Shown here: positions 54,592 through 61,328 of the stretch, piece after piece
Layout: each line of letters starts with the position of its first letter
Position numbering within the stretch: the stretch's first letter is position 1
Program-made: the position numbers and the translations under genes
Assembly: GCF_000010285.1 (NCBI RefSeq)
Contig: NC_010617.1
Span: 1,054,001 to 1,118,000 of the forward strand
Reading direction: 5' to 3'
DNA length: 64,000 nucleotides
From: Kocuria rhizophila DC2201
GTDB taxonomy: Bacteria > Actinomycetota > Actinomycetes > Actinomycetales > Micrococcaceae
Notes under the pieces: model-generated
Told to the model about the DNA's origin: nothing
The model's input: only the letters and a program-made list of their open reading frames with translations
The model's database searches: none

Positions 54592-54673
54592 TGCGCAAGA
54601 CGGGAGTCGAACCCGCACGCCCTGGGGCACAGGAACCTAAATCCTGCGTGTCTGCCAGTTCCACCACTCGCGC
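54592..54673 (-). tRNA. tRNA-Leu (anticodon UAG)
   Basis: Acceptor stem GCGCGAG pairs with CTTGCGC (one G-U). Anticodon stem CAGGA/TCCTG encloses loop TTTAGGT, giving anticodon TAG. The long variable arm and the T arm GGGTTCGACTCCC are present. CCA is not encoded. It lies between the bcp gene and the solute-binding lipoprotein gene. Confidence 0.93.
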
Positions 54674-56316: not shown

Positions 56317-56392
56317 TGGTGCGCCCCCAGGGACTTGAACCCTGAACCCATTGATTAAGAGTCAATTGCTCTGCCAATTGAGCTAGAGGCGC
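56317..56392 (-). tRNA. tRNA-Lys (anticodon CUU)
   Basis: Acceptor GCGCCTC/GGGGCGC, D arm AGCTCAATTGGCAGAGC, anticodon stem ATTGA/TCAAT around CTCTTAA (anticodon CTT) and T arm GGGTTCAAGTCCC. The terminal CCA is encoded, unlike the tRNA-Leu gene nearby. Confidence 0.95.
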
Positions 56393-56543
56393 GGGTATTG
56401 TTCGGGTGGTTGCCCCGGCTCTCACCGTTGCTTTCTCCCTCGCAACGAGAGATAACTTTAGCAGTCCGGCGGGGGGAGTCAAATCCGGTCTCCGAGGGGG
56501 TGGGGGCGGCTCACGGGCGGCGTCCGTGCGGGGCCGCCCACCG

Positions 56544-56549
56544 TAGAAT
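56544..56549 (+). promoter_or_regulatory. -10 element of the leaderless hydroxyacid dehydrogenase gene (TAGAAT)
   Basis: TAGAAT, 7 bases, then ATG 56557. Confidence 0.6.
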
Positions 56550-56556
56550 CGGGCCC

Positions 56557-57528
56557 ATGAGCGACTCGACCTCCCGTGCCCCTTCGTCCCCACTGCGCGT
56601 GATCTCGCTCCCCGAGCAGCGGCTCTTCGACGAGATCAGTGCCGTGACCGAGGACTTCCGGTGCGTGCTGTGGGACCTGGAGGGGGAGCCGCAGGGCTGC
56701 GCCCGGGAGGACGTGGACATCGCGGTGGCTCCCTACTACAGCAGCCGCTGGCGCAGGGACCCCTCGGTCCTGGAGCACGTGCGCCTGCTCCAGCTGCAGT
56801 CCACGGGCTACGACGGCGTGCCCGAGCTCCTCGGGGACGGCACCGCTCTCGCCGCGGCCGGCTGGGTGCACGCGGCCGGCACGGCGGAGATCGCCCTGGG
56901 CCTCATCATTGCCGCCCAGCGCCACCTGGACCGTGCCGTGCTGCAGCAGCACGAGGGCGTGTACAGGTCCTTCTTCTCCCGCGCCGTCGCCGACTCCCGG
57001 GTCACCCTGGTGGGGGTCGGGGAGATCGGGCGTGCGGTGGCCGCACGGCTCGAGCCCTTCGAAGTGGACCTCACCCGCGTGGCCTCCACCGCCCGCGACG
57101 ACGCCTCCGGCCACGTGCACGGCATCGCCGGGCTGCCCGAGATCCTTCCCCGCACGGACATCCTGGTGCTCGCGCTGCCCCTGAACGACTCCACCGCGGG
57201 GCTCGTGGGTGAGCGGCTGCTGCGGCTGCTGCCCGACGACGCCCTGGTGGTCAACGTGGGCCGCGGGCCGGTGCTCGACACGGACGCCCTGACCGCCGAG
57301 GTGCTCGCGGGCCGGCTGCGCTGCGCCCTGGACGTCGTGGACCCGGAGCCCCTCCCGGGGGACCACCCGCTCATGGGCGCGGCCGGTTCCATCGTGCTGC
57401 CCCACGTGGGCGGCTCCAACGTGTCCTACCGGCCGCGCGTCCGGCGGCTGATCCTGGAGCAGCTGGAGCTGATCCGGCAGGGGCGCGCCCCGCAGTTCCT
57501 GGTGAAGCCCGGAGGTTTCACGATGTGA
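56557..57528 (+). CDS. D-isomer-specific 2-hydroxyacid dehydrogenase family protein
   Basis: 323 residues. NAD-binding VTLVGVGEIGRAVAARL, catalytic Arg in VVNVGRGPVLDTDAL, a Glu in ALDVVDPEPLPGDHPL and catalytic His in IVLPHVGGSN. Substrate unknown; the family includes glyoxylate, hydroxypyruvate and phosphoglycerate dehydrogenases, and the short form lacks a C-terminal ACT domain. It precedes the ilv leader on the same strand. Confidence 0.87.
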   Translation: MSDSTSRAPSSPLRVISLPEQRLFDEISAVTEDFRCVLWDLEGEPQGCAREDVDIAVAPYYSSRWRRDPSVLEHVRLLQLQSTGYDGVPELLGDGTALAAAGWVHAAGTAEIALGLIIAAQRHLDRAVLQQHEGVYRSFFSRAVADSRVTLVGVGEIGRAVAARLEPFEVDLTRVASTARDDASGHVHGIAGLPEILPRTDILVLALPLNDSTAGLVGERLLRLLPDDALVVNVGRGPVLDTDALTAEVLAGRLRCALDVVDPEPLPGDHPLMGAAGSIVLPHVGGSNVSYRPRVRRLILEQLELIRQGRAPQFLVKPGGFTM

Positions 57529-57545
57529 GACGGGGTGTCCGCAGT

Positions 57546-57575
57546 TTGACACGGGGGTTGGCTGCGTCACACGAT
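57546..57575 (+). promoter_or_regulatory. Promoter of the ilvBNC operon
   Basis: Consensus TTGACA (57546-57551), 18-base spacer, CACGAT (57570-57575). Transcription would start about 6-7 bases later, at the ATG of the leader peptide. Confidence 0.6.
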
Positions 57576-57581
57576 GAGGTC

Positions 57582-57647
57582 ATGAATTCGGCACAGCGCA
57601 TCATTCGGGACCTCGTACTGGTCGTCCTCATCGGACGACCGGCCTGA
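57582..57647 (+). CDS. ilv operon leader peptide
   Basis: A 21-residue frame, M N S A Q R then [15 protein letters not shown] and TGA. Ten of the 21 residues are Ile, Leu or Val, the end products of the pathway ([11 protein letters not shown]). Ribosome speed across these codons would set whether the downstream terminator forms. The ATG lies 6 bases after the -10, so the leader mRNA itself is probably leaderless. This matches known ilv attenuator peptides of actinobacteria in design. Confidence 0.85.
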
Positions 57648-57670
57648 GGAGCTTCGACGCGCACACCGCC

Positions 57671-57710
57671 AAGGCCCTCAGCCCACGGAACCCGTGGACA
57701 GGGCCTTTTT
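57671..57710 (+). terminator. Attenuator terminator of the ilvBNC operon
   Basis: AAGGCCCT (57671-57678) pairs with AGGGCCTT (57700-57707), with an inner CCACGG/CCGTGG stem. The right arm ends in TT and is followed by three more T, making the only U tract after a hairpin noticed in this window. It lies 24 bases after the leader peptide stop and 87 bases before ilvB. Confidence 0.85.
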
Positions 57711-57796
57711 CATGTACCGGGGCACCACCCCCGCCCCTCGCCGGACACCACCCCGACCGGCACAGTCGCCACCACGCACACAAAGGACACAGCACC

Positions 57797-59674
57797 ATGA
57801 GCAAGGACCAGCCGATCTCACCGGCGGTGATGGCCCAGCGGCGCACGCCGTCCGGACCCACGGCCCAGTCCGCGGACTCGGACCGGGTGCGTCTCACCGG
57901 CACGGCCGCCGACGCCGTCGCCCCCGAGCAGATGACGGGCTCGCAGGCCATCATCCGCTCGCTCGAGATGCTCGGTGTCACGGACGTGTTCGGGCTGCCC
58001 GGCGGGGCGATCCTGCCCACGTACGACCCCCTGCTGGACACGGACAAGATCAACCACGTGCTGGTGCGCCACGAGCAGGGCGCCGGACACGCCGCGGAGG
58101 GCTACGCGCTCGCCTCGGGCCGCGTGGGGGTGTGCCTCGCGACCTCGGGGCCGGGAGCCACCAACCTGGTCACGGCCCTGGCCGACGCCAACATGGACTC
58201 CATCCCCATGCTGGCCATCACGGGCCAGGTGGCCAGCTCCTCGATCGGCTCCGACGCCTTCCAGGAAGCGGACATCGTGGGCATGACCATGCCCGTGACC
58301 AAGCACTCCTACCTGGTGACCGACGCGCAGGAGATCCCGCGCGTCCTCGCCGAGGCCTACCACCTGGCGTCCACGGGCCGCCCGGGCCCGGTGCTGGTGG
58401 ACGTGGCCAAGGACGCCCAGCAGGGGGAGATGACCTTCAGCTGGCCGCCGCACGTGGAGCTCGCCGGCTACCGTCCTGTGACTCGGGGCCACTCCAAGCA
58501 GATCAAGGAGGCCGCACGGCTGATCGCCGAGGCCCAGCGTCCGGTGCTGTACACGGGCGGCGGGGCCATGCGCGCCGACGCCCCGGCCGAGCTCATGGAG
58601 CTGGCAGAGCTCACGGGAGCCCCCGTGGTCACCACGCTGACCGCCCGCGGGATCTTCCCGGACTCGCACCGCCAGAACCTGGGCATGCCCGGGATGCACG
58701 GCACGGTGCCGGCGGTCTACGCGATGCAGCAGGCGGACCTGCTGATCACCCTGGGTGCGCGCTTCGACGACCGCGTGACCGGGCAGCTGGACACGTTCGC
58801 CCCCCATGCCACCGTGATCCACGCGGACATCGACCCCGCCGAGATCTCCAAGAACCGGCTCGCGGACGTGCCCATCGTGGGGGACCTGGCCACGGTGATC
58901 CCGGACCTCACCCAGGCCGTGCGCCAGGAGTTCGAGGAGACCGGCGCGCCGGACCTGAGCACGTGGTGGCAGGCCCTGGACTCGCTTCGGGAGACCTACC
59001 CCCTGGGGTACACCCGCACCGACGACGGCCACGGCAGCCCGCAGCACGTGATCGAGCGGATCTCCGCCCTTACCGGACCCGAGGCCGTGTACGCCTCCGG
59101 GGTGGGGCAGCACCAGATGTGGTCCGCCCAGTTCGTGGACTACGAGCGCCCCCGGCAGTGGCTGAACTCTGCCGGGCTGGGCACCATGGGCTTCGCGGTC
59201 CCCGCGGCCATGGGCGCCAAGGTGGCCCAGCCGGACCGCGTGGTGTGGGCCATCGACGGGGACGGCTGCTTCCAGATGACCAACCAGGAACTGGCCACGT
59301 GCGTGATCAACGACATCCCCATCAAGGTGGCCGTGATCAACAACTCCTCGCTGGGCATGGTGCGGCAGTGGCAGACCCTGTTCTACGACGGCCGGTACTC
59401 CAACACCGAGCTGAACACCGGTCACAACTCCCGCCGGATCCCGGACTTCGTGAAGCTCGCGGACGCCTACGGGTGCGCGGCCCTGCGCTGCGAGCGCGAC
59501 GAGGACGTGGACGCCACCATCCAGCAGGCGCTGGAGATCAACGACCGCCCCGTGGTGATCGACTTCGTGGTCTCGGCGGACGCCATGGTGTGGCCCATGG
59601 TCCCCTCGGGGGTCTCCAACGACCAGATCCAGATCGCCCGCAACATGACTCCCGAGTGGAAGACGGAGGACTGA
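57797..59674 (+). CDS. ilvB: Acetolactate synthase large subunit
   Basis: Thiamine-diphosphate enzyme that condenses two pyruvates, or pyruvate and 2-oxobutyrate, in valine/leucine and isoleucine synthesis. 625 residues. The catalytic Glu is in [30 protein letters not shown] is conserved, and the TPP motif runs from IDGDGCFQM to INNSSLGMV. About 45 extra N-terminal residues precede the core. Controlled by the leader/attenuator upstream. ilvN follows after 3 bases. Confidence 0.96.
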
Positions 59675-59677
59675 TCG

Positions 59678-61328
<1,651 letters not shown>

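Follow-up and report, generated by a model that had tools for sequence, protein, structure and literature searches.

Transcription attenuators of ilvB, leaderless ones among them, have already been published for Streptomyces (PMC8079986) and Corynebacterium (PMC11857589, PMC10272879). In the published account of C. glutamicum, Val-to-Ala changes in the leader abolish the Val response (PMC11857589), and GUA is named as the control or regulatory codon both there (PMC11857589) and in M. tuberculosis (PMC13236596). An earlier survey (Seliverstov 2005; PMC1262725) lists candidates in Corynebacterium, Mycobacterium and Streptomyces that resemble the leader described here, namely short ORFs with Ile/Val/Leu runs that overlap candidate terminators before ilvB; its authors called the mode of ilvB leader regulation unclear. 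Kocuria is absent from the ilvB leader candidates in the parts of that survey considered here, and our literature searches, judged by title, returned no study of an ilv leader in Kocuria.

We analysed a 64-kb stretch of the genome of Kocuria rhizophila DC2201 (2,697,540 bases), positions 1,054,001-1,118,000 of NC_010617.1, which we refer to as the window. A sequence-only reading of this DNA had placed a TTGACA promoter, a 21-residue frame and a hairpin with a T tract, in that order, 5' of ilvB, and we found this order confirmed in the sequence, with a terminator of -22.0 kcal/mol (Table 1). The observation of an attenuator with an Ile/Leu/Val leader 5' of ilvBNC is confirmed, and the main points of its interpretation are supported. 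The -35 and -10 elements of the window are 18 nt apart, and a further 6 nt separate the -10 element from the leader ATG at 57582. The start of ilvC was set at the beginning of the match to its family, NF004017. A simple pattern scan of the window listed neither the ilv promoter nor the ilv terminator, the former because its -10 element fits TATAAT at 3/6 positions only, and the latter because its stem has an internal loop, which the scan bars.

Table 1. Features of the ilv leader region and operon in the window (positions in the window).
Feature	Coordinates	Strand	Basis
Inverted repeat GTTTCACGATGTGAGAC, possible NdgR/LtbR-type operator	57515-57531		consensus match; centre ~59 bp 5' of the start codon
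-35 element, TTGACA	57546-57551	+	sequence; TTGACA kept in 23/23 Kocuria loci
-10 element, CACGAT (nAnnnT)	57570-57575	+	sequence; 6-7 nt 5' of the start codon in 23/23 Kocuria loci
ilv leader peptide frame, leaderless position, 21 codons, Ile/Leu/Val-rich	57582-57647 (stop 57645-57647)	+	sequence, Kocuria conservation
Hairpin 1:2, putative anti-antiterminator	57618-57627 with 57633-57642; extension 57611-57615 with 57645-57649	+	folds, Kocuria covariation
Antiterminator (predicted)	57644-57649 and 57651-57654 with 57672-57681 (terminator left arm)	+	ribosome-masked fold
Intrinsic terminator	stem 57671-57707, T tract to 57710	+	-22.0 kcal/mol; counterpart in 22/23 Kocuria loci
ilvB, acetolactate synthase large subunit	57797-59674	+	NCBIfam NF005860, 1102.7 bits vs cut-off 881
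ilvN, acetolactate synthase small subunit	59678-60187	+	NCBIfam NF008864, 222.9 bits vs cut-off 119
ilvC, ketol-acid reductoisomerase	60303-61328	+	NCBIfam NF004017, matched from residue 73 of the ORF beginning 60087

Very probably, in our view, this locus controls the ilvBNC operon by translation-coupled transcription attenuation of the classical type. The events in the cell, from transcription start and leaderless initiation to termination and the response to branched-chain amino acids (BCAA), are inferred and would fit together as follows. RNA polymerase would begin at the A of the leader ATG or at a neighbouring base, and a ribosome would initiate on the leaderless message. When the tRNAs for Ile, Leu and Val are amply charged, the ribosome would get to the stop codon and mask the strand 57644-57654; the terminator would then form, and the transcript would end about 130 nt past its start. 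When BCAA tRNA is scarce, the ribosome would halt on Ile/Leu/Val codons, block the extended leader hairpin and leave the stop-codon strand free to pair with the left arm of the terminator while the right arm is still untranscribed, and polymerase would continue into ilvBNC. If the leader were not translated at all, the extended hairpin 1:2 would capture the stop-codon strand, and the terminator would form.

The leader RNA folds better than 200/200 dinucleotide shuffles (z -4.66). When the 270 nt 5' of ilvB were shuffled 2000 times by mononucleotide, no shuffle contained a short ATG/GTG frame with 7 Ile/Leu/Val per 8 residues, and a single frame of the 3560 short frames in these shuffles had 6 per 8. 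Because a structured RNA and a terminator precede a biosynthetic operon, one might think of a metabolite riboswitch, a T-box or another known RNA element in place of a peptide-based attenuator. We give this reading hardly any credence: an Rfam search of the 64-kb window at the gathering threshold found nothing except two tRNAs, and the C. ulcerans ilvB-II motif RNA is described as unresponsive to ppGpp by in-line probing (PMC10272879). An Rfam search of 57480-57800 with E up to 5 returned a single match, under its gathering score. The two tRNA genes found by Rfam are on the minus strand, at 56320-56392 and 54592-54673.

To look for the same leader in related genomes, as the sequence-only reading had suggested, we searched 25 genomes of the same genus, the window's own included. 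Of these, 23 gave an ilvB locus, while G002 (split match, one internal stop) and G019 (without a close match) were left out. The leader was found at all 23 Kocuria loci. Each of them has TTGACA, a spacer of 17-19 nt, nAnnnT and a gap of 6-7 nt to the start codon; the leaderless position first read from the window, where the ATG lies 6 bases past the -10 element, therefore holds at 23/23 Kocuria loci. The leader peptides are 18 to 34 residues long, with a variable first half and with 4 to 7 Ile/Leu/Val in some 8-residue stretch, and 16 of them are distinct among the 23 loci, which are related to one another. Conservation of the hydrophobic codons in close relatives had also been anticipated, and the Ile/Leu/Val runs are indeed kept in Kocuria while the other residues of the peptide drift.

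We then extended the comparison beyond the genus. Duplicates (L031, L032 and L033, equal to L009, L011 and L020) were removed before counting, and the resulting 107 distinct loci comprise 76 with an accepted leader (23 Kocuria and 53 other) and 31 without. By-hand changes to this set were the dropping of L072 and L107 despite a passing score, the addition of L055 and L098 without a promoter match, and a moved start for L055. For the 76 leaders the start was chosen from promoter score and peptide content together. Because the promoter score entered this choice, the comparison of 63/76 with 0/1828 is partly circular, and the proper test is selection by peptide alone. When frames were chosen in that way for at least 6 Ile/Leu/Val in 8, the promoter geometry was present in 28/35 (Kocuria 14/14), as opposed to 36/367 other short frames; with the requirement lowered to 5 in 8, it was present in 55/75 (Kocuria 22/26) as opposed to 9/327. 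In a class sample of 40 loci, hand-picked out of 196 genomes with a match, 33 have a similar leader arrangement with a promoter score of at least 7; L112, L113, L127, L129, L134 (by hand), L139 and L147 were set aside.

A T-run rule found no terminator at L022, L039, L056, L092 and L098, which left 71 of the 76 leaders for folding (22 Kocuria, 49 other), and 32 class leaders were folded (L115 is without a terminator). No two of the folded leader-terminator sequences are identical. A few of the 49 other folded loci carry record titles outside Micrococcales. The titles of L057, L065 and L088 (Sporosarcina, Proteobacteria MAG and Bifidobacterium breve MAG) seem at odds with ilvB genes whose best segments are 71-73% identical to the window's, and these are possibly mislabelled or contaminated records. 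Of the 107 loci, 31 are without an accepted leader, and record titles place 26 of these, by genus or family, in the Microbacteriaceae, where we take the named genera to belong to this family; Microbacteriaceae appear to be without the ilvB leader arrangement. For 25 of these loci, no leader was accepted in the 800 nt upstream (L058-L060, L063, L066, L069-L072, L075, L077, L081, L083, L085, L087, L090, L091, L093, L100-L104, L107 and L110), and the 26th, L089, has just 250 nt of upstream sequence. Eighteen of the 25 were searched with Rfam for an element that might take the place of the leader, and none was detected.

The sequence-only reading had further proposed that the leader coding region pairs with the left arm of the terminator, and that the region be folded for competing structures. 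Folding did uncover competing structures, namely hairpin 1:2, an antiterminator and the terminator. The proposed pairing stands insofar as the left arm has a possible partner in the final stretch of the leader. The pairing strand, however, is not the BCAA codons but the stop-codon region together with the bases just 3' of it (57644-57654), and the BCAA codons of the leader form a third, competing hairpin. This hairpin (57618-57642) is built from the Leu-Val-Val-Leu-Ile-Gly-Arg codons. We examined it in a MAFFT alignment, A1, which contains every Kocuria locus except L013, 22 in all. Across the 22 sequences, 89.6% of the cells of its 7 core pairs are standard-paired, compared with 27-51% for slid partners, and 4/7 core pairs are altered on both sides. 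The numbers of cells paired and of cells changed on both sides, and the covariation score, were each above 500/500 shuffles; the count of core pairs with changes on both sides (69/500 as high) and that of further pair types (430/500) were not. Hairpin 1:2 would occupy the anti-antiterminator role of the three-hairpin model.

To follow the switch, we computed sequestration, the probability that the left arm of the terminator pairs upstream when the RNA has been made only to the terminator loop. With a ribosome mask on Val14, covering the RNA to 13 nt past the A site, the best fold of the window is the antiterminator of Table 1, in which the stop-codon strand occupies the left arm. Sequestration in the window is 0.85 with the ribosome on the BCAA codons, 0.00 with the ribosome at the stop codon and 0.16 without a ribosome. 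The 22 Kocuria loci behave alike, with means of 0.75 on the BCAA codons, 0.12 at the stop and 0.24 in the free state. Sequestration on the BCAA codons exceeds that at the stop by more than 0.2 in 22/22 loci, and that of the free state by the same margin in 17/22 loci but not in 5/22. The result is stable to the size of the ribosome footprint, as edges of 10, 13 and 16 nt gave Kocuria means of 0.80, 0.75 and 0.68 on the BCAA codons against 0.15, 0.11 and 0.08 at the stop.

An alternative anti-terminator of the kind that the sequence-only reading called for can thus be drawn, though by itself the window sequence fails to surpass its shuffles in two of three tests. Mean sequestration over the Kocuria loci was 0.87 versus 0.50 for shuffled leaders, with p<0.05 at 14/22 loci and p 0.040 for the window. 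The antiterminator duplex test gave p 0.24 for the window and p<0.05 in 4/22 Kocuria loci, and the longest-helix test p 0.22 and 5/22, respectively; as a single test, the window's own antiterminator pairing is weak. The GGGCCC core of the antiterminator is nearly self-complementary. The GGCCTG/GGTCTG strand is retained even at L018, L021 and L023, where the stop codon has moved 5' of it; the persistence of GGGCCTG (or GGGTCTG) past the stop at these loci is evidence that it is kept as RNA and not as peptide code. The antiterminator was judged by folding each sequence singly, because in A1 MAFFT displaces the terminator arms of L008-L010 relative to the rest. Once the RNA is complete, its equilibrium fold contains the terminator even when a ribosome sits on Val14 (-28.6 kcal/mol), and the switch must therefore be kinetic, set during transcription. 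Attenuators usually switch during transcription.

We considered whether the leader and terminator might attenuate through overall translation or coupling, and not through stalling on BCAA codons, as has been argued for S. coelicolor ilvB. Placing the A site anywhere in codons 2-18 of the window leaves sequestration at 0.83-0.85, so that a ribosome at any of these codons would release the antiterminator; because the fold is insensitive to the position of the A site over this range, BCAA specificity must come from the site at which the ribosome stalls. Codon substitutions in the S. coelicolor ilvB leader had no effect, as quoted in PMC1262725, nor did one Val-codon change in the C. ulcerans leader in B. 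subtilis (PMC10272879), and in most leaders outside Kocuria the computed antiterminator stops short of the terminator arm. These points are opposed by the persistence of the Ile/Leu/Val codons of Kocuria amid a changing peptide, and by the published changes of leader BCAA codons to Ala, which abolished the response in C. glutamicum (PMC11857589) and M. tuberculosis (PMC13236596). The enrichment of the rare Val codon GTA is a further argument for codon-dependent stalling: GTA makes up 24/109 (22%) of the Val codons in the 23 Kocuria leaders compared with 1.3% in their ilvB genes, and 50/159 (31%) in the 53 other leaders compared with 2.7% in ilvB. Stalling of the ribosome is what a rare Val codon in the control stretch would be expected to favour. 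Control by translation in general is, in our judgement, improbable.

A different possibility is that a transcription factor bound at 57515-57531 exerts the main control and that the terminator is merely a fixed brake. The inverted repeat there is conserved and agrees at 14/15 positions with the NdgR/LtbR motif of PMC8222616, as given in that source, and NdgR is reported to have bound ilvB in S. coelicolor (PMC4340878). The motif is degenerate, however, and 41 sites in the 64-kb window (both strands, 57515-57531 included) fit it equally well; moreover, a transcription factor would leave the conserved leader, the covarying hairpin and the ribosome-dependent fold unexplained. We therefore hold it very unlikely to be the main control. 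Relative to the consensus GTCTCA-N5-TGAGAC, which was drawn by eye from the same loci, 22/23 Kocuria, 34/53 other and 16/33 class leaders have their best match at -66 to -69, counted from the start of the leader. A consensus-free scan for inverted repeats in the 87 other leaders peaked at -88, with a second peak at -67, and outside Kocuria the signal for an operator is not clear. In Kocuria, the sequence makes a second layer of BCAA control through 57515-57531 possible, and operator and attenuator may act together as two layers. The gene 5' of the locus (56398-57528) resembles D-2-hydroxyacid dehydrogenases, with scores under every listed NCBIfam cut-off, and its stop codon falls within the possible operator.

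Returning to the preferred reading, a classical attenuator, we compared the computed stems of Kocuria with those of its relatives. At the 49 other loci, sequestration is 0.13 on the BCAA codons versus 0.18 at the stop, and 3/49 switch by more than 0.2; at the 32 class loci, the values are 0.14 versus 0.16, and 3/32 switch. The 49 other loci even fall under their own shuffles (0.11 versus 0.31). The best helix between the stop region and downstream RNA has p<0.05 in 31/49 other and 17/32 class loci. Outside Kocuria the end of this stem and the start of the terminator lie no more than 3 nt apart in 76/81 cases (expected 22), and the stem ends exactly at the junction in 52/81 (expected 7.5). In 78/81 non-Kocuria loci (46/49 other and 32/32 class) the stem shares at most 3 nt with that of the terminator, whereas in 21/22 Kocuria loci it shares at least 4 nt. 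This contrast, which rests on computed stem limits, suggests a genus-specific rewiring in Kocuria; it looks new, and the sharpness of the split may reflect a single evolutionary event.

The abutting form may well function, because a small overlap at the boundary is part of the published C. glutamicum model and because the response is codon-dependent in C. glutamicum and M. tuberculosis; our arm-sequestration measure would not explain how it does so. As a tentative proposal, about which we are more doubtful than confident, the leaderless ilvB attenuator would be ancestral to the class, and its usual stem would end at the terminator start and act by stacking, sterics or shared boundary bases and not by arm sequestration. 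In Kocuria, terminator and stem would then have been remodelled jointly to give an antiterminator of the textbook kind, with full overlap. If this is true, one genus displays the change from an abutting to a sequestering mechanism. The contrast between the overlapping form in Kocuria and the abutting form in its relatives might also explain the conflicting results of codon mutations among Actinobacteria.

The features of actinobacterial ilvB leader-peptide attenuators as a class (a BCAA frame, a terminator, a predicted antiterminator exclusive with it and a third hairpin) are all found in Kocuria, and they add comparative evidence for complete three-hairpin attenuators on leaderless mRNAs in Micrococcales. 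The kind of attenuator and the leaderless start are already known; what is new here is the Kocuria member and the overlap contrast. Like the Kocuria leader, S. lividans ilvL (MRTRILVLGKRVG; PMC8079986) is a BCAA leader; RNA-seq led to its description as leaderless, and both hairpins and a U-rich region precede ilvBHC there, but its sequence differs from that of Kocuria. At two f31 loci with a leader near-identical to S. lividans ilvL (L140 and L141), the stem abuts the terminator, while that of Kocuria overlaps it. The M. tuberculosis ilvB1 leader (PMC13236596), compared by its description, is similar in having a BCAA uORF with LVVI codons, a GUA regulatory codon and a short terminated RNA. 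In C. glutamicum ilvBNC and the ilvB-II motif (PMC11857589, PMC10272879), the described start site is one nt from the leader start codon, comparable to the leaderless position in Kocuria, and the C. glutamicum operon is likewise described with three hairpins, an antiantiterminator, an antiterminator and a terminator. The two systems differ in how far the stems overlap: by the published description, the C. glutamicum overlap is a boundary trinucleotide at the terminator base, whereas the overlap computed for Kocuria is longer.
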